Program-made: the position numbers and the translations under genes
The notes under the pieces: model-generated
Database searches by the model: none
What the model saw: the letters and a program-made list of their open reading frames with translations, nothing else
Told to the model about the DNA's origin: nothing
Shown here: piece by piece, positions 19,611-41,612 of the stretch
How the letters are laid out: each line of letters begins with the position of its first letter
Position numbering within the stretch: the first letter of the stretch is position 1
Assembly (NCBI GenBank): GCA_029263125.1
Contig: JAJCYD010000001.1
Coordinates: 1-64,000, forward strand
Length of the DNA: 64,000 bases
Source of the DNA: Solirubrobacteraceae bacterium
Lineage (GTDB): Bacteria > Actinomycetota > Thermoleophilia > Solirubrobacterales > Solirubrobacteraceae
Reading direction: 5' to 3'

Positions 19611-19616
19611 CGCCGC

Positions 19617-20273: not shown

Positions 20274-20303
20274 AACACGCTAAAGTAACCGTCCGGATAC
20301 TAC

Positions 20304-23180: not shown

Positions 23181-23366
23181 GCGGCTCCTGCCTTTCGGGG
23201 TTGTCCGTCGACGCTCTGACTCCCGACGGACGTCGCGCCGGCTCGCCGGCGGCGACGGCAGCACGTGTGCTTTACATTCTCACGCCTCATCGTCTCGCAG
23301 ATGGACAGATGTGCCTCCGTCTGTAAACGGGGCGCCCGGCGATGGACTGGGAGTCGGCTGTTGCGT

Positions 23367-23855: not shown

Positions 23856-23872
23856 GGGTGTGCCTCGTCGCT

Positions 23873-26008
23873 TCAGGAGTGCCCGAAGCGGACGTTGGGG
23901 AGGATCCGGTCAAGCCAGGCCGGCAGCCACCATGCGGCCGCGCCGAGCAGTCTGAGCAGGACGGGCATCAGGACGAGCCGTACGAGCAGGGCGTCGATCA
24001 GGACCGCGACGCCGAGGATGACGCCCATCTCCTTCGGCGGGAGGGGGCCCGAGAGCGCGAACGTGAAGAACACGGCGACCATCACGGCGGCCGCGGCCGT
24101 GATGACGGGGCCCGAGACCGCGATGCCCTCGACCGTCGCCTCGCGAGCATCGGCCGTGCGGTCCCAGCGCTCCTTGGCCGATGCCAGCAAGAAGACCGTG
24201 TAGTCCATGCCGAGCGCGAAGAGCATCACAAAGAAGAAGATCGGCGCCCAGGCGCTCAGGTAGCCCTGCGACTCGAAGCCCAGCAGCCCAGACAGCGCGC
24301 CGTCTTGAAAGATCCATTTGCCGACGCCGAGGGACGCGAGTGTGGCAAGGACGTTCAGCAGCACGCCGGCGAGCGCGATCAGCGGAGCGCGTAGCGCGAC
24401 CAGCAACAGCACAAAGCCGAGCGTCAGGACGAGAATGACGACCTGTGGGGTGGCGTCGACGAGCGCCAGCTCGAGATCGTGATTCTCAGCGCTCAGCCCA
24501 CCGATCAGCGCGCCGCGCGGGAGCTCGTCGCGCAGACGGTCGATCGTCTGCCCGACGCTGTCGGCAGACGGCATGCCGCTGGGAAGCGCTTGCATCAGTA
24601 CCAGCCCACCACCTCCGGGCTGGATGGGGAGCAGATCGGCGATGCCCGGATCGTCGCGCAGCGTCGCCGCCAGTTCGCGGTGCGTGCTCGCGGGTGCGAC
24701 GATCTGCAGCACGGCCGCCGCGCCCGGACCGAAGCCGCGCTGCAGCTGCTCAAAGCCCTGGCGTGAGCTGTCGTGCTCGGGTGCGACGGCGATCGACGGC
24801 ATCCCGGTCTCGAGCTGCGTGACCGGCCATGAGAGCGCCGCGACCACGAACAGGCCCGTCAGGCCGAAGAGGATCGGGCGGTTCCAGGCGCGCTGCGCCC
24901 ACGCGGCCAGCCGCGGCGAGCGCTGCCCCCCGGGCTTGATCCAGGGCAGCGCGAGGCGGTTGACCCGGCCGCCGAGCGTGGCGAGCACGGCGGGCAGCAG
25001 CGTCAGCGATGCGACGAGCACGAAGCTGACCGCGAGGATGATGCCGGCGGCGGTCGTGCGAAACGCCGGGCTTGGGACCACCAGCACCGCCGACAGCGCG
25101 ATCAGCACTGTCAGCCCGGAGAACAGCACCGCCTTGCCGGCGGTGTCCATCGCCTGAGCGACCGCCTCGACGGGCGAGAGGCCCTCGTCGACATGGGCCT
25201 GGCGAAAGCGCGCGACGATGAACAGTGCGTAGTCGATGCCCAGCGCGAGCGCGAACATCAGCGCGAAGTTCATCGCCCAGATCGAGATGTCAAAGATCTG
25301 CCCGCCCAGTGCCAGCATCCCGGCGGCGCAGACGAGCCCGAGCACGGTCAGCATCAACGGCAATCCCGCCGCCACCAGCGAACCGAAGGCGAGCAACAAA
25401 ATCGCGAGCGTCACCGGCCACGAGATGATCTCCGACCTCAGCATCGCGGTCTTGTTGTCATGGTTGAAGTCAGACCACACGGCGGGCGCGCCCGTCAGGT
25501 CTGCGCGGACGGCTGCGCTCCCGGCAGCGGCGACGCGGCCCTTGAGATCGTCGGCGGCGCGACCCATGTCGTCGGGAGCTGCGTTCGCGCCGCCGACGAT
25601 CAGCGCGGTGCGGCCGTCCGGTGACAGGCCCGCGCCCGGGCGCGGCGCGATGATGTCGCCGACCCGCCGATCTGCGTCAAGCACTCGCTGCACACGGTCG
25701 ATCGTCAGCCGGAACGCGGGGTCATCGGCGGTGTGGGTCTGCGAGCTGACGACGACCTGCAGCGCATAGGCGCCCTGGCCGGCGAAGTGGCGATCGATCT
25801 GCTCGCGCGCCTCGACCGATTCAGAGCTGCTGACCTCCCATCCGGCGCCGGAGAGAGCGCGCTCGACCCGCGGCGCAAGGGCTCCCAGGCCGAGCGCCAC
25901 GACAAGCCAGGTGAGCACGACCACGCGGACATGCGTCGCCGCCCAGCGGCCCATGCCGCCCACGCGGCCGACGGCATCAACCGGCGCGAGATGAGCAACC
26001 GCACTCAC
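23873..26008 (-). CDS. MMPL-family RND transporter
   Basis: Two six-TM blocks; ALGIDYALFIVARFRQ and ALGMDYTVFLLASAKERW. Confidence 0.9.
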   Translation of the reverse strand: MSAVAHLAPVDAVGRVGGMGRWAATHVRVVVLTWLVVALGLGALAPRVERALSGAGWEVSSSESVEAREQIDRHFAGQGAYALQVVVSSQTHTADDPAFRLTIDRVQRVLDADRRVGDIIAPRPGAGLSPDGRTALIVGGANAAPDDMGRAADDLKGRVAAAGSAAVRADLTGAPAVWSDFNHDNKTAMLRSEIISWPVTLAILLLAFGSLVAAGLPLMLTVLGLVCAAGMLALGGQIFDISIWAMNFALMFALALGIDYALFIVARFRQAHVDEGLSPVEAVAQAMDTAGKAVLFSGLTVLIALSAVLVVPSPAFRTTAAGIILAVSFVLVASLTLLPAVLATLGGRVNRLALPWIKPGGQRSPRLAAWAQRAWNRPILFGLTGLFVVAALSWPVTQLETGMPSIAVAPEHDSSRQGFEQLQRGFGPGAAAVLQIVAPASTHRELAATLRDDPGIADLLPIQPGGGGLVLMQALPSGMPSADSVGQTIDRLRDELPRGALIGGLSAENHDLELALVDATPQVVILVLTLGFVLLLVALRAPLIALAGVLLNVLATLASLGVGKWIFQDGALSGLLGFESQGYLSAWAPIFFFVMLFALGMDYTVFLLASAKERWDRTADAREATVEGIAVSGPVITAAAAVMVAVFFTFALSGPLPPKEMGVILGVAVLIDALLVRLVLMPVLLRLLGAAAWWLPAWLDRILPNVRFGHS

Positions 26009-26167
26009 GATGTCTGCCCCGTTGTGTGGAGTGAATGCGCGTACGCGTCGGTCACAGGACGATCCCCCTGGTCGTGTGCTCTGGTTGCTGGTCGGCTTCG
26101 ACGTTCGCGCTTGCCCGCGGACCCCAGGCCGACGCGGGCACGCCTTTTGACATCAGGTTGCATTCTA

Positions 26168-26182
26168 GTCTAGTCTGTAGAC
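26168..26182. promoter_or_regulatory. candidate TetR operator GTCTA-N5-TAGAC
   Basis: Inverted repeat between the divergent MMPL and TetR genes. Confidence 0.4.
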
Positions 26183-26367
26183 AACTATAAGCGATCTGTA
26201 AAGGGGTTCGGGGTGGCGGGAGTTTGCGTGGTGCGGGTGGCGCGTCGTCGGCGCGACCGGGGATCGCTGGGATCGATGCGGCGACGTGCTCGATCGCCCG
26301 TGGCAACGAGCGGTGCTCGCTGCCTCGCCAGCGCGGGCACGGACATGGTCGGTCTCTCGGTGTCCGC

Positions 26368-27021
26368 GTGACAGACGTAGGCCAGCGTGCAGGTGCGGGC
26401 CGGGCGAGTTACGCCGAGCAGGCACGTGAGTTGCTGCACGAGCGACTGCTCGTCGCCGCCGACGACCTGCTCGCCGAGCGCGACTGGGCGACGATCACGA
26501 TGGCCGACATCGCCAAGGGCGCAGGCGTCAGCCGCCAGACGCTGTACAACGAGTTCGGCTCGCGGCCGGAGTTCGCACAGGCCTATGTGCTGCGCGAGGC
26601 CGCTCGTTTCGTCGGCATCGCCGAGCAGGCGATAACCGATCACGCTGGTGATCCTGAGGCAGCTCTGGCCGCAGCATTGACCGGGGCCTTGTCCGAGGCC
26701 GCCGACAACGCGCTCGTCCGAGCGATCCTCGCCGAAGAACCCACCGGCGGGCTGCTTGCGCTCGTCACGACGCAGGGCGCCCCGGTCATCGGAGCGGCCG
26801 TCGACCGCCTCGCCGCCCTCTTCGCGATGACATGGCCGGGCCTGCCCGAAAGGCAAGCGCGTGTCGCCGCCGATTGTGCGACTCGGCTGGCGATCAGCCA
26901 CGCGCTGTTGTCGGTGAGTTCCCCGGAACGCACCGGACCGGAGATCGCTTCGGTGATCGGGCCCTACCTGCAATCCCAGAGCGCTCCGGATATGGATATC
27001 GCTTGCGAGCGCCAGCAATGA
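26368..27021 (+). CDS. TetR-family transcriptional regulator
   Basis: TITMADIAKGAGVSRQTLYNEFGSRPEFAQAYVLREAARF. Confidence 0.9.
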   Translation: MTDVGQRAGAGRASYAEQARELLHERLLVAADDLLAERDWATITMADIAKGAGVSRQTLYNEFGSRPEFAQAYVLREAARFVGIAEQAITDHAGDPEAALAAALTGALSEAADNALVRAILAEEPTGGLLALVTTQGAPVIGAAVDRLAALFAMTWPGLPERQARVAADCATRLAISHALLSVSSPERTGPEIASVIGPYLQSQSAPDMDIACERQQ

Positions 27022-27071
27022 CCCACGCTCGGCGTCCACGCGGGCGCACTGCCAGAGGAGGAACGTTGCGA

Positions 27072-28037
27072 ATGAAGGCGTCAGTCAGCGCGCTGTCGGT
27101 GGCGCTTGTGGTCGCGATCGCGGGCTGCGGCGGCGATTCGCCGTCGGGTGGCACGTCATCGGGCAAGCAGGTCGGCGCGGCGAACGCGCCGGAGGCCAGA
27201 AAGCTGATCAAGCAGACATTTGGCGCCAACCCAAGAGCGAAATCGGGTCTGCTGAGCGGCAGGATCGATATCGCCATCAAGGGCGCGCCGTTGTTTCGCA
27301 AGGGCGTCGCGGTGACGATGAGCGGGCCGTTTCGCCAAGACAAAGGCCGCGACCCCGTGGGCAATTTCTCCGTCGGGCTTGAGCTGAAGGACAAGATCTA
27401 CGGTGCCGATCTGATCCTGATCGGCAACGAGGTGCTGATCGGCCTCGGGTCGACGGCGTACCTCGTTCCGGCGGACATCGGCGCCAACATGCGACGGCCG
27501 CTGCGCGGTGCCGACAACGCACTGACTGGGGTGCTCGGCGTCTTTCGGGTCAACCCGGACCGCTGGGCGAAGAACCCGCGGATCGTCGGCAACGAGAAGA
27601 TCGCCGGTGAGGACGTCGTCCACGCAAGCGCAGCGATCCATACCAACCGCTTCTTTTTGGACGTCGCGAAGCTCGTCAACATCCTGACATCGCTGCGCTT
27701 CACCGAGGTCGCAGGACTGCCGCTCGCGGTCGACGCCAAGGCACGAGCGGCGCTCTCCCGCTCGGTCACGTCCGCGACGGGCGATCTCTACAGCGGCGCC
27801 GAGGACCATGTCATGCGCCGCGCGGCGTTCAAGATGGCGATGAAGATGTCGGCCAAGGACCGCAAGATCCTCGGCGGCATCTCCAGCATCAAGGTCTCAG
27901 GCGACGTCACGACGATCGACGTCGGCTCGCCGACCCAGATCGAGGCACCGACGACGCGCGGTTCCTACGCCGAGCTGCAGGTTTCGCTGGACGCCCTCTC
28001 CGAAGCCGCGCAGCAGGAAGCCCAGGAGAGCCCGTGA
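27072..28037 (+). CDS. secreted LppX/LprAFG-like lipoprotein
   Basis: Lipobox-like signal peptide (LVVAIAGCGGD); position between TetR and ABC genes. Confidence 0.65.
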   Translation: MKASVSALSVALVVAIAGCGGDSPSGGTSSGKQVGAANAPEARKLIKQTFGANPRAKSGLLSGRIDIAIKGAPLFRKGVAVTMSGPFRQDKGRDPVGNFSVGLELKDKIYGADLILIGNEVLIGLGSTAYLVPADIGANMRRPLRGADNALTGVLGVFRVNPDRWAKNPRIVGNEKIAGEDVVHASAAIHTNRFFLDVAKLVNILTSLRFTEVAGLPLAVDAKARAALSRSVTSATGDLYSGAEDHVMRRAAFKMAMKMSAKDRKILGGISSIKVSGDVTTIDVGSPTQIEAPTTRGSYAELQVSLDALSEAAQQEAQESP

Positions 28038-28771
28038 TGCTTGCGCACACAGCAGCGCTCGCACCGTCTCTGACGGTGCAGGGCCTCAGCAAGAGCTTCG
28101 GTGAGCGCCGGGCGGTCCGCGACGTGAGCTTCGACGTCGCGCGCGGCGAGCTGCTCGCGGTCATCGGCCCCAACGGCGCCGGCAAGACGACGCTGCTGTC
28201 GATGCTCGCGGGGATCCTCGAGCCCGACACGGGCACCGTCGCGCAGCCAGACCGCACGACAGCCCGGATCGGCTGGGTGCCGCAGCAGACCGCCGTCTAC
28301 GGAAAGCTCACCGTCGCGCAGAACCTGCGGCTGTTCGCCAAGCTCGAGAAGGTCGCTGACGTCGACGCGACCGTGCGGCGCATGCTCGAGCAGACTGGCC
28401 TTGAACAGCGCGCGGATGACGAGCTGGGCAAGTTGTCGGGCGGAAACCGCCAGCGTGTGAACATCGCCGTCGGGCTGCTCGCCGACCCACCCGTACTGCT
28501 GCTCGACGAGCCCTCCGGGGCGCTTGACCCGCGCCAGCGCGAGCGACTGTGGGGATTCATCACGGCGCTGACCGACCGCGGCACCGCGGTCATCTTCTGC
28601 ACGCACGACATCGCCGAAGCCGAGCGCCACGCCCACCGCGTGCTCGTGCTCGCCGACGGCGAGGCCCTGTTCAACGGCACCGCCGCCGAGCTCAAGGCCG
28701 TCGCCGACGCAGACGAGGGGCACGACCTCGAGCAGGCCTTCGTCGGCTTCCTGCGCGAACGGGGCCACTGA
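28034..28771 (+). CDS. ABC transporter ATP-binding protein
   Basis: Walker A GPNGAGKTTLL, signature LSGGNRQRV, Walker B VLLLDEPS. Confidence 0.95.
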   Translation: MMLAHTAALAPSLTVQGLSKSFGERRAVRDVSFDVARGELLAVIGPNGAGKTTLLSMLAGILEPDTGTVAQPDRTTARIGWVPQQTAVYGKLTVAQNLRLFAKLEKVADVDATVRRMLEQTGLEQRADDELGKLSGGNRQRVNIAVGLLADPPVLLLDEPSGALDPRQRERLWGFITALTDRGTAVIFCTHDIAEAERHAHRVLVLADGEALFNGTAAELKAVADADEGHDLEQAFVGFLRERGH

Positions 28772-28772
28772 C

Positions 28773-30116
28773 ATGCGCTGGATGCTCCTCAAGGACCTGC
28801 AGATCCTGCGGCGCTCCAAGCTGCTCGTCGGGCTGCTGATCGTCTATCCCGTCGCGATCGCGCTGCTGATCGGCTTCGCGCTGTCAAGCGGACCCGAAAA
28901 GCCGCGCCTGGCGTTCCTCAGCCACATCCCCGAAGGCGGCCAGACGATCAAGCTCGTCGGCAAGAAAATCGACGTCAAGGTCTACACCGACGAACTGTTC
29001 AGGTCCGTTGACCGGATCGACGTCGAAAATCGCGCTCAGGTACTGGAGAAGGTGCGCTCCGGTGAGGCACTGGCAGGACTGATCCTTCCACCGGACTTCA
29101 CGACCAAGCTCTCAAACGGCGGCTTCAACTCCGCCAGCGTCGAGGTCGTCTACAACGGCGACGCGCTCAAACAGTCCTTCGTCCGCTCAACGGTCTCCTC
29201 CAAGCTCGCGCAAGCCGACGCCGCGCTCGCCCGCACGATCAACACGGTCGCCACCGACTACGTCGACATCTTCACCAACGGCGGGCACATCGACGTGCTC
29301 GGTACCGATCTGAACCTCATCGGCCTCAAGAAGACCAACACGCTGATCGATTCAGCGATCGCGATAGCCGACAAGCCACAGGTCTCGCGCAAACTCGCCC
29401 CCGTTCAGAACTTCGCGGAGCTCTCCGTCGCGAACATCGACCGCGTCAAGGATGTCCTGAACACCGTCGAACAGCCGGTCAAGGTCAACGAGACCGTGCT
29501 CAGCGGAAGTCGCGCGCCACTGGACACGTTCGCCGTCGCGCTGGCGGTCACGATCTCGCTGATGTTCGTCTGCGTCCTCCTCGCGTCCGGGCTGCTTGCT
29601 CTCGAACGCGAGGAGAACACGTTCTCCCGGCTCGCACGCGGCCTCATGCCCGGCGGCCGACTACTCGCAGGAAAGGTCATGCTCGCCGGCGGCTGCGCAG
29701 CAGTCGTCACCTTCGCGATGCTGCTCGGCATCAGCGCCTTCGTGCCACTGGATTTCGGGCGCGTCGGACTGTGGTTCGCCGCGATCGCCGTCAGCGCATT
29801 GGCGTTCGGTGCGCTCGGCGTCGCGATCGGCAGCCTCGCACGCGAGGTACGCGCAGCATCACTGCTCGCGCTCATGCTCGCGCTCCCGCTCGCGTTTCTC
29901 GCGCTCGTGCCCAGCGGCAGCGTGTCACCCGCGCTCTACGACGTCATTCGCGTCGTCTCCGCGATCTTCCCATTCAAACCCGCACTGGATGCGGTCAACG
30001 CTGCGATCAACGACACGACGCCCAGCCTGGGCGTGGCACTCGCCCACCTCGGCGCGCTGATCGTGATCTTCGGCGCCGCCGCGCGAGCCGGCCTGCGCCG
30101 CTTCGCGCTCGCCTGA
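28773..30116 (+). CDS. ABC-2 type permease
   Basis: N-terminal TM, large extracytoplasmic loop and C-terminal TM cluster; immediately follows the ATPase. Confidence 0.85.
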   Translation: MRWMLLKDLQILRRSKLLVGLLIVYPVAIALLIGFALSSGPEKPRLAFLSHIPEGGQTIKLVGKKIDVKVYTDELFRSVDRIDVENRAQVLEKVRSGEALAGLILPPDFTTKLSNGGFNSASVEVVYNGDALKQSFVRSTVSSKLAQADAALARTINTVATDYVDIFTNGGHIDVLGTDLNLIGLKKTNTLIDSAIAIADKPQVSRKLAPVQNFAELSVANIDRVKDVLNTVEQPVKVNETVLSGSRAPLDTFAVALAVTISLMFVCVLLASGLLALEREENTFSRLARGLMPGGRLLAGKVMLAGGCAAVVTFAMLLGISAFVPLDFGRVGLWFAAIAVSALAFGALGVAIGSLAREVRAASLLALMLALPLAFLALVPSGSVSPALYDVIRVVSAIFPFKPALDAVNAAINDTTPSLGVALAHLGALIVIFGAAARAGLRRFALA

Positions 30117-30319
30117 AACGCGCACGCTCGCTCTGGGGGGGTGACCGCGTCGCATTATGCCGCCGGGTCGTTGCTCCCACGCATCCAGTGAGGCCAACCA
30201 GGTCGCCCGGCTGCTCGATCTCGCGGCATTCTGACACTCGCGCGTCGCGTCGAGAGCGTCCGGCCCGCCCACCGATCCGCTTGCATCGGCGACGTCGGCA
30301 CGATGACTCCGTCCGTTCT

Positions 30320-30346
30320 CCGCAGGAAACGGGCTGTTTCCTGCGG
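30320..30346. repeat. perfect hairpin CCGCAGGAAAC-gggct-GTTTCCTGCGG
   Basis: 11-bp stem, 5-nt loop, no U-tract. Confidence 0.8.
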
Positions 30347-30574
30347 CGCCGCCAGCGCGATCAGGGCCTGGTCAGTCGTCGTCGGTCACGCCACCGCGCC
30401 CATGCGGCTCACGGTCGACATAGCAGAGGGCCCGAATGCCCGATACCACCATGGCGATTACCCCCGCCTTGGCTGGGCAACCAGCAACCGAACGACGCGG
30501 GCGTGTGCGACCGCTGGGCCGAAACGTCCCCGGCGTGGTCGCGCTTGGATGCCGCGGGCACGGGCGCGGGGCGG

Positions 30575-31789
30575 TCAGGCCGCGTCGGCGAGCACGGGCA
30601 CCCAGACTTCGGCGGGGCGGCCGCGTTCGGGTTGGCGGGTCTCGCGGCGCAGCCGGCCGGCATCTTCAAGGACTCCGAGGGCGCGCTCGATTTCGCGGCG
30701 TTTCTTGTTGCGGCTGAACATGTCAGATACCTCTGTGCGGGTGACTCCGGCGGAGCGTTCCTTGGCGGCGGCCCAGATCTCGTCGGCGGTCGGGTCGCCG
30801 AGCGTGTCGCCGAAGATCCATGTGGTCGAGGCGGCGCTGTAGCGCCAGACGGCCAGGCCGGCCTCGAGGTGCTCGAGGCCGATCGTGTCTGAATGGTCCA
30901 GCAGCGCGTAGATAAGCGCGAGGCGCACGACGTGCGCTTCGGCGCGAGCTGTGGCTGCACCGGCCAGGCCGGCCTGGCCGGCTGACAGGTCGGCGTAGAT
31001 CGCGATCCAGCGCTCGCGGGCAGCACGGTCGAGCGGTAGTTCGCGATGGGCGGCGGCGAAGCGCAGTGCCAGCCGCAGGGCGTCGCGGATCTCGGCCAGA
31101 TGGTCTCCGTCGAGGGCACTGCCGAAGGGCAAGAGCTTGGACCGATCGACGGCGATGAGCAGGAAGCGGTTGAGGAAGCCGTTGGCGAGCTCCGTGGCGG
31201 CGAGGTAGCGCAGCAGCTCGTCTTTGGTGATGTGTCCGACGATGCCGATGTGCGCGGCGGTGGCGCGCAGCGGGTTGTTGCGGACCATCGTCTGCAGGGC
31301 GTCGCCGTCCCAGGCTTGGCGCACGATCGGCGACAGCGTGTTTCCTTCGCGGGAGAGGACCTTGAGGACTTGAGCGAACTCCTGCTCGAGCACGAGCCGG
31401 CGCTTGTCGGCGGGCGCGTCGCTATCGGCTTGGTCGACGGGATCTCGGACTTGGGCGATGAGGCCCTCGCCGGAGCTGAGGCCGCTGGCGAGGCACCCCT
31501 GCACGAAGTCGGGGTCGGCCTCGGTGAGGATGCGGCGGACGTGGCCCCATGACGATCCTTTGCGGCCTTTGGCCGATGGGCCGACGAGGACGCAGAACTC
31601 GTTGGGGTAGTGGCGGTCGGCCTCGATCGCGTAGTGCGCGCCGCGTCCGCAGGCGGTGCCAAACGCAACGAGGAATTGGGCCAACAGCGCCATCGGGTGT
31701 GCCTCGGTGTGCGGCTCGGTACGCAGCACGAACTCGCCCGCCGGCCCGTGAAATGCCGCGTCGGCGGGCGCCGCCGGCCAGCTGGTCAC
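30575..31789 (-). CDS. DUF3987-like (primase-helicase-associated) protein
   Basis: NEFCVLVGPSAKGRKGSSWGHVRRIL (P-loop-like), EQEFAQVLKVLSREGNTLSPIVRQAWDG, HIGIVGHITKDELLRYL. Confidence 0.75.
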   Translation of the reverse strand: MTSWPAAPADAAFHGPAGEFVLRTEPHTEAHPMALLAQFLVAFGTACGRGAHYAIEADRHYPNEFCVLVGPSAKGRKGSSWGHVRRILTEADPDFVQGCLASGLSSGEGLIAQVRDPVDQADSDAPADKRRLVLEQEFAQVLKVLSREGNTLSPIVRQAWDGDALQTMVRNNPLRATAAHIGIVGHITKDELLRYLAATELANGFLNRFLLIAVDRSKLLPFGSALDGDHLAEIRDALRLALRFAAAHRELPLDRAARERWIAIYADLSAGQAGLAGAATARAEAHVVRLALIYALLDHSDTIGLEHLEAGLAVWRYSAASTTWIFGDTLGDPTADEIWAAAKERSAGVTRTEVSDMFSRNKKRREIERALGVLEDAGRLRRETRQPERGRPAEVWVPVLADAA

Positions 31790-32346
31790 TCGAATGCTCC
31801 TTCCCGGATACCCTGGCGCAGCGCGACGCGAAGGCCGTCGATCTCCTGGTCGCGCGTAAGGAGTTGGTCCTCGAGCTCGACGACGCGCCCCTCGAGCTCG
31901 GCGATCCGTTCGGTTTCAGGCTTGAATGCAAGCGCAGCGCCGGTGATCGCGGGTAGGTCCAGGGCGATTTCGCTACCCAGATGCTCGCCGAGCTTGCGCT
32001 CCAGCAGCTTGATGACCTGATCTTGGCGGCGCAGCTGAGCGGCGTGGTTGGCGACCTTGACGCGTAGCTGCGCGGCGGTTGCGTTGCTCGCCGCGACGGC
32101 GTGCGCCGCCTGCTGGTCATATGCGGCCGCGAGCTTCTGCTTGACATGTTCCTTGAGATCGCCGTGCTTGGGGTCGTTGATGAACTTGACGCTCACCCCC
32201 GCGCGCCGCGCCAGCGTCGTCCAATGAAACGCGACGCCCTGCTCGATCATCGCGTCAGCGGCGTGAAGCACCGCCGCGCGCTTCTGGCCGGAGATGACGC
32301 GGTGGTGCTGGGTGAGGTGGTCAGGCACCAGCGAGCGCGGGGTCAA
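31786..32346 (-). CDS. Tn554 TnpC-like DNA-binding coiled-coil protein (DUF6262-like)
   Basis: AADAMIEQGVAFHWTTLARRAGVSVKFINDP helix-turn-helix followed by a long coiled coil; sits after two tyrosine recombinases. Confidence 0.65.
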   Translation of the reverse strand: MTPRSLVPDHLTQHHRVISGQKRAAVLHAADAMIEQGVAFHWTTLARRAGVSVKFINDPKHGDLKEHVKQKLAAAYDQQAAHAVAASNATAAQLRVKVANHAAQLRRQDQVIKLLERKLGEHLGSEIALDLPAITGAALAFKPETERIAELEGRVVELEDQLLTRDQEIDGLRVALRQGIREGAFE

Positions 32347-34873
32347 ATGAGGGGCTGCTGTCGATCACGTTCAGCTGGAACGCAGCAGGCGTGAGGTCGC
32401 CGAGCTCACGACGGTCATTGGCCTGGCTTCCAAGGATGCGGTGCACCTCCTTGGCCTCCTCCCGGGGGAGGCCATCGATCTTCTGACGCATGCGACGGAT
32501 GAGGTACCTGACGCGCTCGATGTGCTCGTCGGATGGCATCGCGTCGCGCTTGGCCCAGTCAGCCAGCTCATCGGAGGCGGCGAGGATCCGCTCGCGCGCG
32601 GCGAGCAGGTCAGTGAGGTACTTCTCCAGCGCGGCGAGGTGCGTGAGGTCGGTACGGAAATGCTTGCAACCGATGCAGCGCATCCGGTATGGACAGGCCG
32701 AGCCGAGCGCTGCGACGTTCGACGGCTCAACACACGCCCCGTAAGGGATCGCGGTCGACCCGATCGCCATCCGTATGTCCTCGGACTCCGCGAACCGTTC
32801 GACGATCTGCGCGAGCTCGTTGCCCTCGGCGTCCCATTGCCAGCGGTGCTCGAGATCGACGGCCTGACGACGGCGCTCTTGGCGAATCCGGCAGTAGCCC
32901 TCCGTCGTCGCGAAGCTGCGGTGATCCATGATGTCCATCAGCAGATGCGGCGAGCAGCCCTTGTCAGCCAGCCGCTGAGCGTAGGAGTGCCGAAACGCGT
33001 AGGCATAGACGCGTCCGCGGTCATATGGCGTGCCGTCGCTGTCGAGCAGCTCGGGCAGCTGCCGCGACCATTCGCGAACGGCATGCGTGACGCGCGGTCC
33101 GCTCATCGGCACCGTGCCCGAGCGGTTGCGTGCCTGCTGCGGAAACAGCGGCAGCTTGCCGGCGCCAACGTCCGGAAAACGAGCCCGAGCACGTTCGGCG
33201 GCGCGCTTGATGATCAGCGCCTCGCGTGCATGTACCGGCAAGCGCTTGGAGCGCTTGGGTGTCTTCTCGGGCCGGTAGACGAGGACCGGCTGGCGGTCAA
33301 GCGTGCCGTCCTCACGGACACGTTCGTCCCACTGCAGACACGTCTCCTTCAAGTGGCAAATCTCGCTCGGGCGCCGCCCAGTGCGGATCAGCAGCTCGAC
33401 CGCATCTGCGACGTCCTGGTTTGCGATATCGACGAGGAGCGCGAGCGCGTTCTTGGACGCGAGCTGCTTGATCACCGAGTTGGGCAGGCTGCGGCCAACC
33501 TCGTCGTCGGGGTCGCGCTCCTCCGTGCGTGGACTGTCGCTTTCGTAGATCGCAAACGTGTCCGCGAGCCCATGCAGCGGGCCGTCAGGGGCGGTCAGTC
33601 CGCGGTCACGCGCGCGCCGCAGCAAGTGGCGCACCATCGTGATGCAATCGAGGTGCGTGGAGTTGGCCAGCTTGCCCGCCGATGCCTGCCCTGCGAGACG
33701 CATCAGAAACTGCTCGATGTCGCGGCGGCCGACGTTGGCGGGGTCCACGCCTCCGTCGTGTCGGATGCGCAGCGACTCGCTCAGGCGCCTCATCTGACAC
33801 AACGTGCTCCTCAGGTAGTGCACGTTTTTCACCGCGAGCGATTCGCGTGCCCAGTCGCGGTAGATCTCTCGCAACCACGGCTGCGTGAGCTGGCCGAGGT
33901 CGAGGTTCTGTCGCGCGCCATCGCGGCGCAGCAACCCCAACCGCCACACATCACGCGAGAGCTCCTCCTCGGGATCCAGCAGCGCCTGCTCGACAGACCA
34001 CTGGATGCGCTTGAGCAGAAGCCGCGCGATCGATGTCGAGGGTGGGCGCTTGTCGATCTCGAGCACTGAACGGACGCCCATCCGCGCCAGGTGGCCGACC
34101 AGGCACGTCAAGTCGCCCCACGCGTTGAATGCGAGCTCGCCGTGCAGGGCGTCCTGGACGCCGACGAGAAACTCCAGCCGCAGCCGCTCGGGCACCGAGG
34201 CGAGCACGAGAACTCGCCCGTCAACCGACACCGCTACGGGATGCTCGCGTCGCCATGTATCCCAGTCGGGCTTGCCCAACTGACGCCATCTGAACTGGCA
34301 CGCCACACATGACCGCGGTTGACGGTGGCTCGCAAGCCGGCCGCAGCGCTCACACGCACCGGCCGTTGGCCGCGGCTGTGCCGGCGGGCGTGGCGTGCGC
34401 CGGCCGTTGCGAGGCTGGCCCCCACGAATCCACTCCTCGACCGACGCCACCATCGAGCGCTTGAACGATCGAGCGCACAGCCGGCAGAGCTGGTGGGGTC
34501 CGTACGCCGGACGCTCGAACCCCGGCGCCCGGCATACCCGGCAGAGGACCTCGGCCTTGCGGCCCACGTCAACGCGGACGCGCGGCACCGTGACGAACTC
34601 CTCGAGCGTCATCTCGTTGGACCCGCGCCGCCGGCGCGACGTACAAGGCCCGCACAGGCCGCCGGCCTGCACAGCCACCGCAGAGCAATTGCGCACCACG
34701 CACTCCTTGAAGCCAAAGACCGGATGATCCGCCGACGGCGCGAACACCCGCCGATCGGGGTCATAGCCAACCTCGATCAGCGCCTCGAGGTCCACAGCGG
34801 CGCGCAAACGCGCGATCGTCGGGTCAAGCTCGACCGCGGAAAGCCGCGGAACACGAGCGACCTCAGCGAGCAT
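32321..34873 (-). CDS. large tyrosine recombinase, Tn554 TnpB-like
   Basis: ELLIRTGRRPSEICHLK...YAFRHSYAQRLADKGCSPHLLMDIMDHRSFATTEGYCRI (R...HxxR...H...Y); Cys-rich N-terminus; start at MLAEVARVP. Confidence 0.85.
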   Translation of the reverse strand: MLAEVARVPRLSAVELDPTIARLRAAVDLEALIEVGYDPDRRVFAPSADHPVFGFKECVVRNCSAVAVQAGGLCGPCTSRRRRGSNEMTLEEFVTVPRVRVDVGRKAEVLCRVCRAPGFERPAYGPHQLCRLCARSFKRSMVASVEEWIRGGQPRNGRRTPRPPAQPRPTAGACERCGRLASHRQPRSCVACQFRWRQLGKPDWDTWRREHPVAVSVDGRVLVLASVPERLRLEFLVGVQDALHGELAFNAWGDLTCLVGHLARMGVRSVLEIDKRPPSTSIARLLLKRIQWSVEQALLDPEEELSRDVWRLGLLRRDGARQNLDLGQLTQPWLREIYRDWARESLAVKNVHYLRSTLCQMRRLSESLRIRHDGGVDPANVGRRDIEQFLMRLAGQASAGKLANSTHLDCITMVRHLLRRARDRGLTAPDGPLHGLADTFAIYESDSPRTEERDPDDEVGRSLPNSVIKQLASKNALALLVDIANQDVADAVELLIRTGRRPSEICHLKETCLQWDERVREDGTLDRQPVLVYRPEKTPKRSKRLPVHAREALIIKRAAERARARFPDVGAGKLPLFPQQARNRSGTVPMSGPRVTHAVREWSRQLPELLDSDGTPYDRGRVYAYAFRHSYAQRLADKGCSPHLLMDIMDHRSFATTEGYCRIRQERRRQAVDLEHRWQWDAEGNELAQIVERFAESEDIRMAIGSTAIPYGACVEPSNVAALGSACPYRMRCIGCKHFRTDLTHLAALEKYLTDLLAARERILAASDELADWAKRDAMPSDEHIERVRYLIRRMRQKIDGLPREEAKEVHRILGSQANDRRELGDLTPAAFQLNVIDSSPSFDPALAGA

Positions 34874-36059
34874 CGGCGCCCGCCGCGTCGTCGAGCGCGA
34901 GCGTGTCGACATAGGCCGCGTCGATCGCGTCGCGCATCTTGTTCCACTCCGGATGCACGTAGCGCGCCGTCGTCGCCAGGTGCCGGTGACCGAGCAGATC
35001 CTTGACGACATCAAGCTCCGCAACGCCCGCCAACCCCGTCGCCCACGCGTGGCGCAGCATGTGCGGCGTCACCTTGCGCTCCAGCCGCGCACGCAGGCAG
35101 AGGTCCGACACGATCGAGTTGACCTGATCGACCCGAACCGGCCTGCCCATGTTCTCGCCCGCAACGTTCACGAGCACCGTCAGCGAGCCGTCCGCGGCCG
35201 GGATCCGTTCGCGCTCGTAGTGCCACCGGTCGGCGCAGAACACGGTGACCGCGTCGACCGGGACAATCCGGTCGCGACTGGACTTCGCCGACGAGCCCTG
35301 CTCGGTCGTACGGCGCCGCACGTGCAGGTGCGCGCCAGCCCGGGCGCAACCAAGCTCCCGGGAGTCGTGCATGAAATGCACGTCCTCCTCGAGCAGCAGA
35401 ACGGCCTCCCCGCGGCGCAGGCCGGCGTGGCGCATCAGGACGAGCAGCAACCGATCACGCCAGTTATGCGTGACCCCCATCAGGGCGTTGAACTCCTCCC
35501 GCGCGACCGGGTTGACATCGCCCTGCTCCTCGGCGCGCAACACATGGCGGGGACGCAGGGCAAAGCGCTGCGAGCGCCGCTCCGAGATGCCGAGATCGGG
35601 CAACTGGCCCATCACGAACAGCGCCGCGATCGCCTCCTCACCAACCAGACCGTGCGCGCGCGACGACTTGTACATCTCCCGCACCGACACGAGGATGTGG
35701 TTGATCCGCCCGTTCCCGCGGGGCTGCCCGACGCCGCGTCCAGGGCGAGTCACGATCTGGTTGCGCAGCACCAAGACGAAATCGTCCATGCGGCGCGCCG
35801 CCTCCATCAGGCCAAGTTGCCGCACGGCGCACCAGTCAAAGAAGACAGCGAGGTTGCCGGCGTACTTCTCGGTTGTGCCAAGCGCCCGCCCGCGGCTGTA
35901 GCGCAAATAGCGCAGATACGTGTCGGCCGCCGGGACGAGCTCGTAGTCGCCGTCACGCACGCTCCAGTACCCGAGATCCCCGGGGGGCCGCACGCGGATC
36001 GCGGCGCAGCCCGGCACAGGAACCGGCGAAGAGACGACCGTGAGCATGGTCGCGACCAT
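34863..36059 (-). CDS. tyrosine recombinase, Tn554 TnpA-like
   Basis: LLVLMRHAGLRRGEAVLL...VTPHMLRHAWATGLAGVAELDVVKDLLGHRHLATTARYVHPE. Confidence 0.9.
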   Translation of the reverse strand: MVATMLTVVSSPVPVPGCAAIRVRPPGDLGYWSVRDGDYELVPAADTYLRYLRYSRGRALGTTEKYAGNLAVFFDWCAVRQLGLMEAARRMDDFVLVLRNQIVTRPGRGVGQPRGNGRINHILVSVREMYKSSRAHGLVGEEAIAALFVMGQLPDLGISERRSQRFALRPRHVLRAEEQGDVNPVAREEFNALMGVTHNWRDRLLLVLMRHAGLRRGEAVLLLEEDVHFMHDSRELGCARAGAHLHVRRRTTEQGSSAKSSRDRIVPVDAVTVFCADRWHYERERIPAADGSLTVLVNVAGENMGRPVRVDQVNSIVSDLCLRARLERKVTPHMLRHAWATGLAGVAELDVVKDLLGHRHLATTARYVHPEWNKMRDAIDAAYVDTLALDDAAGADAR

Positions 36060-36112
36060 CCCAGACGGTTCGGACGGAACGGCGCACCAAAGAACCCGCA
36101 CCGCCACCGGCC

Positions 36113-37231
36113 TCACGCCAGGGCTAAGCACCGACCGGTGCGGCCCTGAGACCTACAGAAAAGCTCGCCCGCGGTCTTCGCCCCATCGACAAAGCGCCAC
36201 AGCCACTTGGCAGCGACATCGACATCGCCGTAGGCGACCTTCGTCCTGCCCGGCTTGCCGCTCTTGAGCGTCGGGGTCGTCGTCGTGCGGTGCTCGTCGA
36301 GCACGAGCCGCAGCCCGTTGGCGGCGATCGTCCGAGCGACGTGATCGCCGGTGCCGAGGTAGCTGCTGCTCTCGGGGCCGAGGAGTCCGAATGCGAACAC
36401 GCGGGCCACGTCCATGTCGTCGGGCGCGACCGCGGCGAGCTCGGTCAGCAGGGAGGCGCCGAGGTCGAGGTTCGTGCCGTGCGCCTGCCTGGTGAGCTCG
36501 CGCAGCGTGGCCCGGTGCTCGACGTCGAGCTCCTCGCGCGGCGTGCGCTCCCGCCGGCCTTCACCGGCTCGCTTCGATTTGGCCTTGTCGACCGCCCTCT
36601 CCCGCAGCTCTTCGACGGTGCGGACGATGGCCTGCTTGGCGAGCTCGCGAAACAGTGCACGATCGGTGATGATCGGCGCGCTGCCATCCAGTTCGATCAG
36701 CACACCACCGGCGCGGGCCTGGTCGACGTCCGAGGTATCGAAGCGGAACGTCGGCGGGCCGTAGGCATACTGCTCGACCAGCTTGTGCAGCTTCTCCGCC
36801 TCGGCGACGAGCGCTTCGGTCTTCTTGCCCAGCCGCAACGACTTCAGGTCGTTGGGGTGGACGGTGTTGAGGTACGCGCCGAACGTGTCCTTTGGGGCGT
36901 CGCGCAGCGCCTGCCCGATCGCCCATCCGGCGTTGTTGACGAGCTGCGACCCGGCGACGTTGCCGTCCGCGATCGTCGCGACGACCGCCCCGGCGATCTG
37001 CGGCGACACGTCAACGATTGCGAGCAGCGTGTCGATCGCACTGACGGGGATCTCGCCGGTGCCGACGAGCCGCTGGCCGGTGTCGGGCAGCTTGAGGATC
37101 TTCGCTCGCACCGTTGCGAGCTGGCGACTCCAGCCGAGCGCCTGCGCGGCGCCGTCGAGCGTGTAGCCCTCGTCGAGCATCGCCTGGACCGCCTTGGCCT
37201 CCTCCAGCGGCGTGAGCGCCTTGCGCGTGAC
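36113..37231 (-). pseudogene. parB: ParB-like protein, C-terminal part (5' end removed by RIT-like insertion; 3' end abuts the Tn554-like operon)
   Basis: VTRKALTPLEEAKAVQAMLDEGYTLDGAAQALGWSRQLATVRAKILKLP continues the N-terminal part at 41322-41612. Confidence 0.8.
37226..37231. repeat. left copy of 6-bp direct repeat CGTGAC (putative target-site duplication)
   Basis: Matches 41322-41327; ParB frame is restored with one copy. Confidence 0.8.
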
Positions 37232-37371
37232 TTATGCCGAGTGCGATGGCATGCCGACCTGGGCGTGAAAGGTCGCGCAAAGTGCGCGGTCGGCCGGGTG
37301 TGAGGTCTTCATAACCGCGGACCCCGGGCCGAGCTTTAGACCGAGATGGTCATCGGTCGAGAGGGAACATC

Positions 37372-38589
37372 GTGGTGAGGGAGCGGCCCTCGGTCGCTCG
37401 GGTGCTCGGGCCGCTTGGCCCGTACGCGTCGGGGTTTCGCTCGTGGCTGGCGCAGCGCGGGTATCGGCCGTCGTCGGTGGAGACCCAGGCGTTCTTGATG
37501 GGTCATCTGAGCCGCTGGATGACCGAGCGGGGGTTCGAGCCGTCGGCGTTGACGAGCGAGGTGGCCGAGCGCTATCAGCAGGTTCGTCGGCAGAGCCACT
37601 CGTCCTTGAGCGGAAGTCGTGGGCTGGAGCAGCTGCTGGCGTATCTGCGGGGCGTCGGCGTCGTGCCCGCGCCGGCCGCGCCGCGATCGCCGGCCGAGGC
37701 GGTCATCACTGCCTACCGCGAGTACCTCGCGCGAGAGCGCGGGCTGGTCGAGGGATCGGTCGTCCTGCGGGCCCGGGTCGCGCGGCTGTTTCTCGGCGAG
37801 ATGTCTGATCCGATCGAGGCTGCGCTGGCGCAGCTGCGCCCTGGCGATGTGACGCGGTTTGTCGTAGCGCAGTGCGGTGACGCTCGTCGCGGGACGGCGT
37901 GGGCGTCGACGCTGGTCAGCGGGCTGCGGTCGTTGCTGGTGTTCTTGCATGTCACGGGGAGAGTCCCGGTCCCGCTTGCGGCGGCTGTCCCGAGCGTCGC
38001 GGGCTGGCGGCTGAGCTCGTTGCCGCGCGGCTTGGATCGCGATCACGTCGACCGGATCATCAGCAGCTGCGACCGGCATGCCGCGGTCGGTCGGCGTGAT
38101 TACGCGATCTTGATGCTGCTCTCGCGTCTGGGGCTGCGCGCGTGCGAGATCGCCGCGCTGACGCTCGACGACGTCGATTGGCGCGCCGGGGAGCTGACGA
38201 TCCATGGCAAGGGTGCTCAGATCGATCGGCTCCCGCTTCCTCGTGAGGTCGGGCAGGCCGTCGTTGCGTCCTTGCGTGATCCGCGTCGGGCCGGTGAGTG
38301 TCGTGCGGTGTTCGTGCGCACGTTCGCCCCCGATGGAGCGTTGTCGGCGAAGGCGATCGGGTCGGTGCTGCGTGACGCGTGCGACCGCGCGAGGGTGCCG
38401 CGCGTCGGGACGCATCGGCTGCGCCACACCGTCGCGACCGAGCTGCTCGCTGCCGGCGCGCCGTTGACCGAGATCGCTCCGATTCTGCGGCACACGAACC
38501 TGTCGAGCACCGCGATCTACGCCAAGGTCGACCGCACGGCACTGCGAGCATTGGCGCGTCCGTGGCCGCTGGCGGGAGCCGGAACGTGA
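37372..38589 (+). CDS. tyrosine recombinase 1 of trio (RitA-like)
   Basis: LLSRLGLRACEIAALTLDDVDW...HRLRHTVATELLAAGAPLTEIAPILRHTNLSSTAIYAKVD. Confidence 0.9.
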   Translation: MVRERPSVARVLGPLGPYASGFRSWLAQRGYRPSSVETQAFLMGHLSRWMTERGFEPSALTSEVAERYQQVRRQSHSSLSGSRGLEQLLAYLRGVGVVPAPAAPRSPAEAVITAYREYLARERGLVEGSVVLRARVARLFLGEMSDPIEAALAQLRPGDVTRFVVAQCGDARRGTAWASTLVSGLRSLLVFLHVTGRVPVPLAAAVPSVAGWRLSSLPRGLDRDHVDRIISSCDRHAAVGRRDYAILMLLSRLGLRACEIAALTLDDVDWRAGELTIHGKGAQIDRLPLPREVGQAVVASLRDPRRAGECRAVFVRTFAPDGALSAKAIGSVLRDACDRARVPRVGTHRLRHTVATELLAAGAPLTEIAPILRHTNLSSTAIYAKVDRTALRALARPWPLAGAGT

Positions 38590-39536
38590 GCACGCTCGCC
38601 GCGGCAGCCGAGGATTACCTGCGCGTCCGGCGCGCACTGGGCTACAAACTCGATCGCCAGGGTCGCCAGCTGCTGGCGTTCATCGCCTACCTCGACGAGG
38701 CAGGTGCGACCACCGTCACGATCGAGCACGCGATCGCCTGGGCGACCCTCCCGGCCGGCACGACCAGCGGCTACTGGTCTGACCGGCTGTCGGTCGTACG
38801 GCAGTTCGCCCGCTATCTGCAGACCACCGATCCAGCATGTGAGGTGCCGGCCAAGCTGCTCTTGCCCTACCGCCGTGAGCGGCCGATTCCGTTCCTGTTC
38901 ACGCCGGCGGACACCGAGCGGGTAATGCGCGCCGCAGGACAGCTACGCGGCGAGCTGCATGCGGCGACGACGCAGACGCTGATCGGCCTGATGGCCGTGA
39001 CCGGAATCCGCGTCGGCGAGGCGATCGGCCTCGGCCGCGATGACGTCGACCGTCCCGGGCAGCTGATCCGGGTGATCGACGGCAAGTTCGCCAAGAGCCG
39101 CGAAGTCGCCGTCCACGAGACGACGATCGCCGCGCTCGACCGCTACACAGAGGTGCGCGACCGGATCTGTCCCAGCCCGCGGTGTGACGCGTTCTTCTTG
39201 TCGCGCAACGGGACCCGCCTGCTCTACCAGTGCGTGCGCCCGGTGTTCATGCGCCTCGTCGCTGCCTGCGGGCTCGAGGACCGCGCGCCCCAAAGTCGTC
39301 CGCGGCCGCACAGCCTGCGCCACAGCTTCGCGGTCAACACGCTGCGCGACTGGTACGCGGACGACGTCGACGTGCAGGCCCGGCTGCCGCTGCTGAGCAC
39401 CCACATGGGCCACGTCACCCCGGCCAGCACCTACTACTACCTCACGGCCGCCCCGGACCTGCTCGCCCTGGTGGCCACACGACTGGAGCCCAACCCGGAA
39501 AGGACCCGCTATGACCAGCCTGGCACCGACGCTTGA
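38586..39536 (+). CDS. tyrosine recombinase 2 of trio (RitB-like)
   Basis: MAVTGIRVGEAIGLGRDDVD...PHSLRHSFAVNTLRDWYADDVDVQARLPLLSTHMGHVTPASTYYYL; GTGA overlap with the preceding gene. Confidence 0.9.
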   Translation: MSTLAAAAEDYLRVRRALGYKLDRQGRQLLAFIAYLDEAGATTVTIEHAIAWATLPAGTTSGYWSDRLSVVRQFARYLQTTDPACEVPAKLLLPYRRERPIPFLFTPADTERVMRAAGQLRGELHAATTQTLIGLMAVTGIRVGEAIGLGRDDVDRPGQLIRVIDGKFAKSREVAVHETTIAALDRYTEVRDRICPSPRCDAFFLSRNGTRLLYQCVRPVFMRLVAACGLEDRAPQSRPRPHSLRHSFAVNTLRDWYADDVDVQARLPLLSTHMGHVTPASTYYYLTAAPDLLALVATRLEPNPERTRYDQPGTDA

Positions 39537-40500
39537 GGCGTACTTCACCGACCGGCTGATCCGCCAACGACGCGCCAGCCCGCACACGATCGCCAGCTAC
39601 CGCGACACGTTCCGACTCCTGTTCGCCTACATGCAGCGGACAACCGGGACGCCGCCATCGCGGCTACAGATCACCGACCTCGACGCGGCAACGATCGGCG
39701 CGTTTCTTCAGCACCTCGAGCAGGAGCGCCAGAACACCGCCCGCACCCGCAACATCCGGCTCGCCGCGATCCACTCCTTCTTTCACTACTGCGCGCTGCG
39801 CCACCCCGAGCACGCCGCCCTCATCCAACGCGTGCTCGCGATCCCGCGCAAACGCGCCGACAAACGCACCGTCACGTTCCTCACCCCGATCGAGACACAA
39901 GCGCTGCTCGACGCCCCCAACCGATCAACACGGGCCGGCCGCCGCGACCACGCGCTGCTGCTCACCGCCGTCCAGACCGGCCTGCGAATCTCCGAGCTGC
40001 TCGGCCTCACCCGCGCCGACACGCAGCTCGACACCGGCGCGCACGTCCGGACGATCGGCAAAGGCAGAAAGGAACGCGTCGCGCCGCTCACCAAGCAGAC
40101 CGTCGCGGTGCTCCGCGCCTGGCAGCGCGAAACCAGCGACCAACCCGCAAGCCCGCTGTTTCCCTCGCGCGACGGCGGCACGCTCACCCGCGACGCGATC
40201 GAGCGGCGCCTCGCCCAACACGTCACGACCGCGCAGCAGGCGTGCCCGTCGCTGCGATCCAAGCGGGTCACGATGCACACGATGCGTCATACCGCGGCGA
40301 TGAACCTGCTCGCCGCCGGCGTTGACACCTCCACGATCGCGCTCTGGCTCGGCCACGAGCAGGAACGCACCACGCACATCTACCTGCACGCCGACCTCGC
40401 GCTCAAGCAACGCACCCTGGACCGGATCACGCCTCCCGAGGGCCGCCCGGGACGGTACCGCGCACCCGACACTCTGCTCGCCTTCCTCGAGGGCCTATAG
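39511..40500 (+). CDS. tyrosine recombinase 3 of trio (RitC-like)
   Basis: AVQTGLRISELLGLTRADTQ...HTMRHTAAMNLLAAGVDTSTIALWLGHEQERTTHIYLHADL; overlaps the preceding gene. Confidence 0.9.
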   Translation: MTSLAPTLEAYFTDRLIRQRRASPHTIASYRDTFRLLFAYMQRTTGTPPSRLQITDLDAATIGAFLQHLEQERQNTARTRNIRLAAIHSFFHYCALRHPEHAALIQRVLAIPRKRADKRTVTFLTPIETQALLDAPNRSTRAGRRDHALLLTAVQTGLRISELLGLTRADTQLDTGAHVRTIGKGRKERVAPLTKQTVAVLRAWQRETSDQPASPLFPSRDGGTLTRDAIERRLAQHVTTAQQACPSLRSKRVTMHTMRHTAAMNLLAAGVDTSTIALWLGHEQERTTHIYLHADLALKQRTLDRITPPEGRPGRYRAPDTLLAFLEGL

Positions 40501-40641
40501 CCTGCCCGCGCGCCCAACCGGTGGGCGGCCGAACGCAAGCGCACTTGCGGGTAGCCAGCCGCAGGCTCGCGTTTCGTCGTTTCCGATCGGCTGGCGCGCA
40601 ACTGGCCGGGCGCTCGCTACCAGGCGGAAGCAGTAGTCGGG

Positions 40642-41016
40642 CTACTCGCCCTTGTAGGGCTGGTAATCCTCGAACTCCCAGACCATGAAGCGCTTGAGCT
40701 TCTCGGCGACCTCAGCCCACGTGTCGCCGTCCGTTGACCTCACGTACTGCCTCAGCGCGGCCTCTACAGCCTCCCACGAGAAGGCGGTGACAATCAGTGT
40801 CCCGCGCGACCAATACGGCCGCCCGTCGCGGTCTAGCCGCGCTGCGACGCCGCTCGGAGTACAGACCTCGAACGTGAACGTGTCGCCGCCGTCGGCGTCG
40901 ACGGGACCGATATCGGCGTACATGGCCACGCAGCAGTGTTCGGGGCGAGGGGGCAACGACTTCGCATCGATCAGGCCCAGGTCTTCGCTCCACAACCGCT
41001 TTACCTCAGCGCGCAC
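40642..41016 (-). CDS. Imm8-family-like immunity protein
   Basis: MRAEVKRLWSEDLGLIDAKSLPPRPEHCCVAMYADIGPVDADGGDTFTFEVCTPSGVAARLDRDGRPYWSRGTLIVTAFSWEAVEAALRQYV resembles the Imm8 pattern by eye. Confidence 0.7.
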   Translation of the reverse strand: MRAEVKRLWSEDLGLIDAKSLPPRPEHCCVAMYADIGPVDADGGDTFTFEVCTPSGVAARLDRDGRPYWSRGTLIVTAFSWEAVEAALRQYVRSTDGDTWAEVAEKLKRFMVWEFEDYQPYKGE

Positions 41017-41301
41017 GCCTTGGACGTTAGATCGTTACGCGCTGTCGCTTGGAGGCAGATGCAGTCGCCCGCCGATGACGCCGACGAGATGCCTACCGCT
41101 GACGAAGCACGAAGCGTGCCGCTGGCTGTCCGCTGGCGCGCTCGCTTGGAAGTCGAGCGGCAGCCCACCTTCAGCCAGGTCGTCCGCCGACCGCCTGGAT
41201 CCGTTCGGGTTCTTATGCCGACCTCGTCGCGGGGTTCACAACCGAGCAGTGGGGACTCGACTCGGACATCGGGCATGACGACGCTGTCGGCATAAGTCGC
41301 G

Positions 41302-41321
41302 TCATGCCGACGTCGGCATGA
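41302..41321. repeat. 20-bp perfect palindrome TCATGCCGACGTCGGCATGA at the right end of the RIT-like element
   Basis: Self reverse-complementary; directly abuts the CGTGAC repeat. Confidence 0.9.
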
Positions 41322-41612
41322 CGTGACGTTCTCGGCAGCCGCGTCGGCGCTCGAGCCCTCCGTGTCGCGGACGACGACGGGCGCGTCGGGTAGGTCGAGC
41401 TTGCGGCACGCAGCGAGGCGGTGGTGGCCGGCGACGAGCTCATAGCCAGCCTCGGTGGGTCGGACGATCAACGGGACGAGCAGACCGCGCAGCGCGATCG
41501 ACTGCGCGAGGCTGTCGACATGCGCCTCGTCGAGGTCGCGGACGTTGTCGCGCACGAGGATCTGGTCCAGCGCGAGACGCAGATCGCCGCTGGCAGGGGT
41601 ACTGATGGCCAT
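41322..41612 (-). pseudogene. parB: ParB-like protein, N-terminal part (interrupted)
   Basis: LALDQILVRDNVRDLDEAHVDSLAQSIALRGLLVPLIVRPTEAGYELVAGHHRLAACRKLDLPDAPVVVRDTEGSSADAAAENVT. Confidence 0.85.

Follow-up and report, generated by a model that had tools for sequence, protein, structure and literature searches.

The window analysed in this study is the first 64 kb (64,000 nucleotides) of a 73-kb contig (JAJCYD010000001.1) of a Solirubrobacteraceae bacterium (GCA_029263125.1). It contains a parB gene on the minus strand that is interrupted by a 4.09-kb insert carrying three tyrosine recombinase genes, which we assign to the RIT family. An earlier note on this DNA, made from the sequence alone, had described a split ParB-like open reading frame with CGTGAC at both junctions and had proposed that deletion of the insert with one copy of the repeat gives a seamless ParB frame. 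Both copies were located, one on each side of the insert (37226-37231 and 41322-41327). When the element is removed and one CGTGAC is kept, a continuous parB frame of 468 amino acids (aa) is obtained, reading ...AAENVTRKALTPLEEAKAV..., and the insertion point falls in the Val-Thr codons of ...AAENVTRKALTPLEEA... on the minus strand. The N-terminal part of the split gene matches ParB_N and the other part matches HTH_ParB. Intact homologues in other genomes of the family (G069, G018, G072, G007 and others) cover residues ~7-456 in one open frame that spans the junction, with 47-53% identity, and at the junction codons they read EN-I-(A/T/L)-R. The earlier note had allowed that related genomes might lack an uninterrupted parB with this junction, or that the two parts might match different ParB families; neither is the case, since intact homologues align across the junction in one frame. 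The seamless frame and the intact homologues thus support an insertion into parB. A DNA-level empty site for exactly this parB was sought in the closest relative, G002 (~86% identical DNA), and was not found there; the contigs of G002 stop on both sides of the parB junction, 42 bp short. The same note had mapped the interruption to two ParB parts. The split at the junction holds, but the C-terminal part is not complete: its open reading frame (36113-37231) covers only the middle of the gene because a second insertion cuts parB at ~36161, and the remaining parB lies at 14426-14665. The gene is therefore in three pieces and presumably inactive.

The insert carries the three overlapping, same-strand recombinase genes that had been taken as the mark of a RIT element, with overlaps of 4 and 26 bp. 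By domain match, RitA, RitB and RitC are phage-integrase-family proteins, and a motif scan found the catalytic Arg, His-x-x-Arg, His and Tyr motifs in all three alike. When the recombinases were compared with described RIT elements, as had been suggested, each was closest to the protein of its own role in the trios of pHG1, pNGR234a and EbN1 plasmid 2; identity to the pHG1 trio was 38% for RitA, 37% for RitB and 56% for RitC. A RitA with two core-binding domains and a RitC with an extra C-terminal helix are traits of the family (PMC8138268); in the window, 113 aa precede the XerD-like part of RitA and 38 aa follow the tyrosine of RitC. An Imm8 gene completes the gene content, and the insert has no TnpC/Srap/GinD-type gene and no long TnpB-type recombinase. 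Like other members of the RIT family (PMC3414803, PMC2864759), the element has three adjacent, overlapping tyrosine recombinase genes in the order A-B-C, each closest to its own role, as well as terminal inverted repeats, a palindrome and a position inside another gene. It differs in that its left and right repeats are less alike than usual and in its length, 4.1 kb instead of ~3.5 kb without other genes, owing to the Imm8 passenger; this length describes the family rather than defining it. Gene order, role-by-role homology, catalytic motifs and terminal half-sites support the view that the insert is a genuine RIT element, and the element itself is a new member of the family. Relatives such as those in Kibdelosporangium are present as several near-identical copies; the window copy was not seen elsewhere among the genomes searched.

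Terminal repeats and a palindrome have been mentioned for RITs (PMC3414803). In the window, the left end reads host, CGTGAC, TTATGCCGA, 8 bp, GCATGCCGA, and the right end, read rightward, consists of the terminal repeat, GTCGCG, a 20-bp dyad, CGTGAC and the host. The dyad has the composition TCATGCCGA-CG-TCGGCATGA (41302-41321), and both the inner 6-mer GTCGCG and the dyad belong to the insert. These half-sites and the dyad correspond to the 28-34-bp terminal inverted repeats and end palindrome that are usual for RITs, despite the low identity of the two window repeats given below. The features of the locus are collected in Table 1.

Table 1. Features of the interrupted parB locus, including both insertions (window coordinates)
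Feature	Position	Strand	Description or basis
parB C-terminal remainder	14426..14665	-	85% identical to G002 parB DNA
Second insertion, 21.5-kb Tn554-like element	14666..36161	-	parB homology gap
Third gene of second insertion	31786-32346		
TnpB-like tyrosine recombinase of second insertion	32321-34873		
TnpA-like tyrosine recombinase of second insertion	34863-36131		
parB middle part (HTH_ParB)	36162..37231	-	Cut again at ~36161; domain match, homologues
Outer 6-bp spacer, ritA side	37226..37231	.	CGTGAC; minus-strand codons GTC ACG = Val-Thr of parB
Left terminal repeat	37232..37257	+	Half-site TTATGCCGA, then GCATGCCGA 17 bp further in
ritA, tyrosine recombinase, 405 aa	37372..38589	+	~113-aa N-terminal extension before XerD-like part
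ritB, tyrosine recombinase, 316 aa	38586..39536	+	4-bp overlap with ritA
ritC, tyrosine recombinase, 329 aa	39511..40500	+	26-bp overlap with ritB
Passenger gene, Imm8 immunity-protein family	40642..41016	-	PF15586, 7e-26; between ritC and right end
Right terminal repeat	41212..41295	-	Outermost half-site TCGGCATAA at 41287-41295
Internal 6-bp spacer	41296..41301	.	GTCGCG (reverse complement CGCGAC; GTC GCG = Val-Ala in parB frame)
20-bp dyad	41302..41321	.	TCATGCCGACGTCGGCATGA, two half-sites back to back
Outer 6-bp spacer, ritC/dyad side	41322..41327	.	CGTGAC
parB N-terminal part (ParB_N)	41322..41612	-	Open reading frame, domain match, restored frame, homologues

RIT loci from public genomes and viral contigs were searched for the end layout of the window, using a strict definition of the dyad (9-2-9, consensus YTATGCCGA, 6 bp outside the terminal repeat). 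Under this definition a dyad was found at an end in 43 of the 57 elements with enough flank, and in 41 of those 43 it was present at one end only, the ritC end in 22 and the ritA end in 19. Two RITs, L080 and L106, have it at both ends. Its distance from the terminal repeat was exactly 6 bp in 54 end regions. A hand count over five target families gave 32 insertions, all of them with the dyad on the same target side and with the element in both orientations. By sequence, the general RIT layout is target-X6-[E]-n6-P-O6-target. E denotes the element and P the 20-bp dyad with its two recombinase half-sites; X6 is the 6-mer outside the dyad-free end, n6 the one between element and dyad, and O6 the one outside the dyad. 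The distance from ritC to the dyad is 804 bp in the window compared with 82-122 bp in 30 other loci, which makes the Imm8 passenger unusual among these loci. Nested RITs are present in the pHG1 and pNGR234a regions; one pHG1 trio has the dyad without a clear terminal repeat, and no dyad was found by the strict rule at the remaining trios of these two plasmids. Matches to RitC at 1e-60 occurred in 412 of 72,556 plasmid records. That the dyad is part of the target (a REP-like site) was considered and rejected: neither the restored parB frame nor an empty ardC site described below contains the dyad.

The three 6-mers were then compared, n6 as its reverse complement, rc(n6), in 47 loci; these include six loci fetched later from the class of the window, and L135 was dropped since its spacing is 7 bp. 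X6 equals O6 in 23 loci, rc(n6) equals O6 in 20 and rc(n6) equals X6 in 20, compared with means of 0.9, 0.8 and 0.7, respectively, when loci were shuffled. At least one exact pair was present in 37 of the 47 loci (mean 2.34 and maximum 8 in 5000 shuffles), and in 34 of 43 when only one locus per genome was counted. When shuffling was confined to loci with the same target-gene family, 22 exact pairs were observed against a mean of 5.4 and a maximum of 15 (20000 shuffles); a shared target family alone therefore does not account for the match, which is a property of the single insertion. Identity extends over exactly 6 bp and ends there, and the 6-mers behave in the same way in further genomes of the class of the window and in several copies on named plasmids. 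The earlier note had read the flanking CGTGAC copies as a 6-bp duplication at precise ends and had considered such a clear repeat rare for this family. The two copies stand, but the comparative data fit a site-specific strand-exchange spacer, accompanied by an internal spacer and a dyad that travel with the element, rather than a simple target duplication, and identical outer 6-mers in 23 loci are not rare. At spacer positions 5-6, X6 and O6 agree in 45 of the 47 loci, while the first four positions agree in 33-36. This conservation may mark the side of the first strand exchange or may reflect only codon constraint.

Two Acidiphilium plasmids, pACMV1 and pACRY01, contain one RIT, 100% identical over 3347 bp, in the same ardC codons and in opposite orientations. 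The ardC gene is uninterrupted on a plasmid of Acidiphilium multivorum JZ-6, where the empty site reads ...CATGAACT-GGGGCA-CGCCACAGG.... In pACMV1 the sequence is ...GGGGCA-[E forward]-TGCCCC-TTATGCCGACATCGGCATAA-CGGCCA-CGCC..., with CA at the dyad centre, and in pACRY01 it is ...GGGGCA-[E reversed]-TGGCCG-TTATGCCGATGTCGGCATAA-GGGGCA-CGCC..., with TG at the centre. The 32-bp n6-P-O6 block is intact, has been inverted together with the element and has shifted from its right to its left end. Both plasmids would follow from a circle R-TGCCCC-P(CA)-CGGCCA-L, opened at CGGCCA for pACMV1 or at TGCCCC for pACRY01. Swapped spacers were also found in Kibdelosporangium philippinense, where seven near-identical RIT copies lie in serine-recombinase genes (restored frame 468 aa) and outer and inner spacers are exchanged between copies: L083 has GAAGCT outside and GGCCTC inside and L088 the reverse, with two diverged Kibdelosporangium recombinase genes involved. 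In-place inversion was the first reading of the Kibdelosporangium copies; as a sole explanation it was rejected on account of the non-palindromic dyad centre of the Acidiphilium pair, in which the dyad block moves with the element.

We consider it likely that the RIT element entered parB when tyrosine recombinases exchanged strands across a 6-bp spacer. In the mechanism that we propose, RitA, RitB and RitC would act at X6 and O6, cutting and rejoining the DNA there so that a circle is released, with the joint (right end)-n6-P-m6-(left end). This joint would amount to two back-to-back crossover sites around P with two different 6-bp addresses, and either address could serve to integrate the circle where the 6-mer of the target matches it or is similar. 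The address used would set the orientation of the element and the end that bears P, while P would always face one and the same target side. Each outer spacer at the new junctions would be of either donor or target sequence, and the spacer not used would remain within the insert, recording an earlier address. In the window, the two predicted addresses are CGTGAC (Val-Thr, this parB) and CGCGAC (Val-Ala, parB-like), which makes another parB gene the probable origin of the element. That RITs in general move via a circle joint with two alternative addresses flanking the dyad, one setting the orientation and the other being kept, seems to us fairly probable. Layout, statistics and sequence relations are what the analysis shows; from them we deduce the circle, the exchange of strands and the earlier use of the inner 6-mer as an address. 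The three types of half-site (dyad, outer terminal and inner terminal) are a lead on why three recombinases are used.

One alternative is that the dyad stays fixed beside the target while the element flips in place between inverted ends, homogenising the 6-mers, without a two-site circle. The constant side of the dyad with the element found both ways agrees with this, as does the identity of the inner 6-mer with the non-dyad outer 6-mer in 7 of the 47 loci. The 6-mers shared by L130 and L131 of M. methanotrophicum and by L119 and L122 of Rhodobacteraceae AG16 are also not given by a single two-site integration; these two pairs need more than one step, and in-place inversion or spacer homogenisation therefore probably also happens. 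As a substitute for the circle we regard flipping as unlikely, since it would leave the dyad centre and the host-adjacent 6-mer unchanged relative to the host, whereas both are inverted or exchanged with the element in the Acidiphilium pair (CA/TG). Movement as in Tn554 or the strand-biased circularizing integrative elements (SEs), in which a one-strand copy-out circle carries 6 bp of one flank and leaves them at one fixed end, would account for a 6-bp spacer and a circle with the donor 6 bp, as described for SEs (PMC10214605), and the Tn554-like 21.5-kb element in the same parB does have unlike 6-mers at its two junctions. We nevertheless believe this route to be quite improbable for RITs. 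Their outer 6-mers are the same in 23 of 47 loci, and an odd 6-mer lies on one side in 7 loci and on the other side in 7, which shows no strand bias. The element also lacks a TnpC/Srap-type gene and has a dyad and a second, internal spacer. Conventional transposition, in which staggered cuts are filled in to leave a 6-bp target-site duplication and the inner 6-mer and dyad are incidental to the element end, would explain the identical 6-mers flanking the window insert and the single copy in the empty site (reconstructed parB and Acidiphilium JZ-6), but it is strongly disfavoured and has very little probability, as the recombinases encoded by the element are of the tyrosine type only, half the loci have unlike outer 6-mers, a difference not predicted by gap filling, matches between the inner 6-mer and an outer one are far more frequent than by chance, and inner and outer 6-mers are swapped in the Acidiphilium pair.

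Several points weigh against the two-address circle. No circle or excision has been observed. Fourteen of the 57 elements fail the strict dyad search; by eye, a few of them seem to have a variant dyad and several have no detectable terminal repeat. The window terminal repeats agree at only 19 of 34 bases, compared with 27-34 in most other loci, and the window copy may therefore be decayed or recombinant. No exact 6-mer pair was found in 10 of the 47 loci. Codon constraint in the target also makes spacers alike, so that part of the similarity may be target-derived, and the strong conservation of spacer positions 5-6 may likewise have its source in the target and not in recombination. In support of the proposal, the three 6-mers differ from one another at 62% of third codon positions of the target gene compared with 26% of others (Fisher p=8e-8), in a test that counts pairs within loci, which are not independent. 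This bias is expected if all three 6-mers stem from homologous genes, and not if the inner one is a mutated copy. In the window the single difference is non-synonymous, the inner 6-mer reading GTC GCG (Val-Ala) and the site GTC ACG (Val-Thr). Intact parB homologues most often have Ala (GCG) as the second residue; their first residue is Ile, with the codon ATC and not the GTC of the inner 6-mer. The reading of the inner 6-mer as the earlier parB address is therefore suggestive only.

Restored frames place the insertions at conserved codons of other mobile-element or plasmid genes, with targets recognised from motifs alone. By this means IstB-like ATPases are hit at the Walker-B Asp, tyrosine recombinases at the LRH box, serine recombinases at SEAELH, an ISAs1-like target at TVK, a DUF3489-like protein at W-Q-x-H, ArdC at HELxH and a SRAP-like protein at CNLY. 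Conserved codons in istB, ardC, serine and tyrosine recombinases, SRAP and parB are thus targeted recurrently. Outside the spacer the half-site consensus of the targets is weak (CTG at -6 to -4), unlike the half-sites of the element. Among the plasmid RITs L250, L252, L254-L256 and L248, ardC is repeatedly split at HELxH, and another RIT lies at CNLY of a SRAP-like gene.

Some known elements resemble this system in part. The Tn554 family consists of multi-recombinase transposons with a 6-bp exchange region, and differs from the window RIT in its TnpA/TnpB/TnpC gene set. Coupling sequences of the Tn916 type are donor-derived spacer bases that the circle carries into the next site; Tn916 has one joint spacer, while RITs appear to have two, joined by the dyad. 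SEs and GInts also have several tyrosine recombinases per element and the SE footprint is a 6-bp spacer, but each has four genes, the donor 6 bp of SEs are left behind at a fixed end, and the accessible parts of their descriptions contain no dyad or second spacer (PMC10214605, PMC5385486). According to a 2023 comparison (PMC10214605), neither the target specificity of RITs nor their empty sites and movement had been tested. The 6-bp spacers and the exchange rule are not in the accessible RIT literature; an earlier mention is possible, for example in Ricker et al. 2013 or Nielsen 2017. If true, a two-address attachment system would be undescribed in the accessible literature for any tyrosine-recombinase element. 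RITs are widespread. The end rules allow their ends to be placed exactly, empty sites to be derived and the circle joint to be predicted, and the inner 6-mer could be read as a trace of an earlier insertion.

Other insertions were found in the same genome and in the window. A remnant of a close RIT relative (L002/L055, G000:C35:129946-130996) has 92% DNA identity in the ritC region, and additional RITs are present at G000:C14 and C6. In G153, a metagenome-assembled genome of the Solirubrobacterales from the same family as the window genome, a 22,461-bp contig (C288) has junction sequences identical to those of L072. In the window, homology to parB resumes from 36162 to 14665, so 14666-36161 is another insertion of ~21.5 kb, which G002 lacks. 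TnpA/TnpB-type recombinases lie at its right end, and its cargo includes two MFS transporters, an MmpL protein, a TetR regulator and an ABC transporter. From the gene layout we infer that it belongs with Tn554; its junction 6-mers, GCGAGC and GAGAAC by eye, are unlike, as expected for that family. Transposase-like open reading frames at 7569-8972 and 48392-50050 surround a presumed conjugative region (by eye), and a 1096-aa open reading frame at 3779-7069 is TPR/CHAT-like in appearance.

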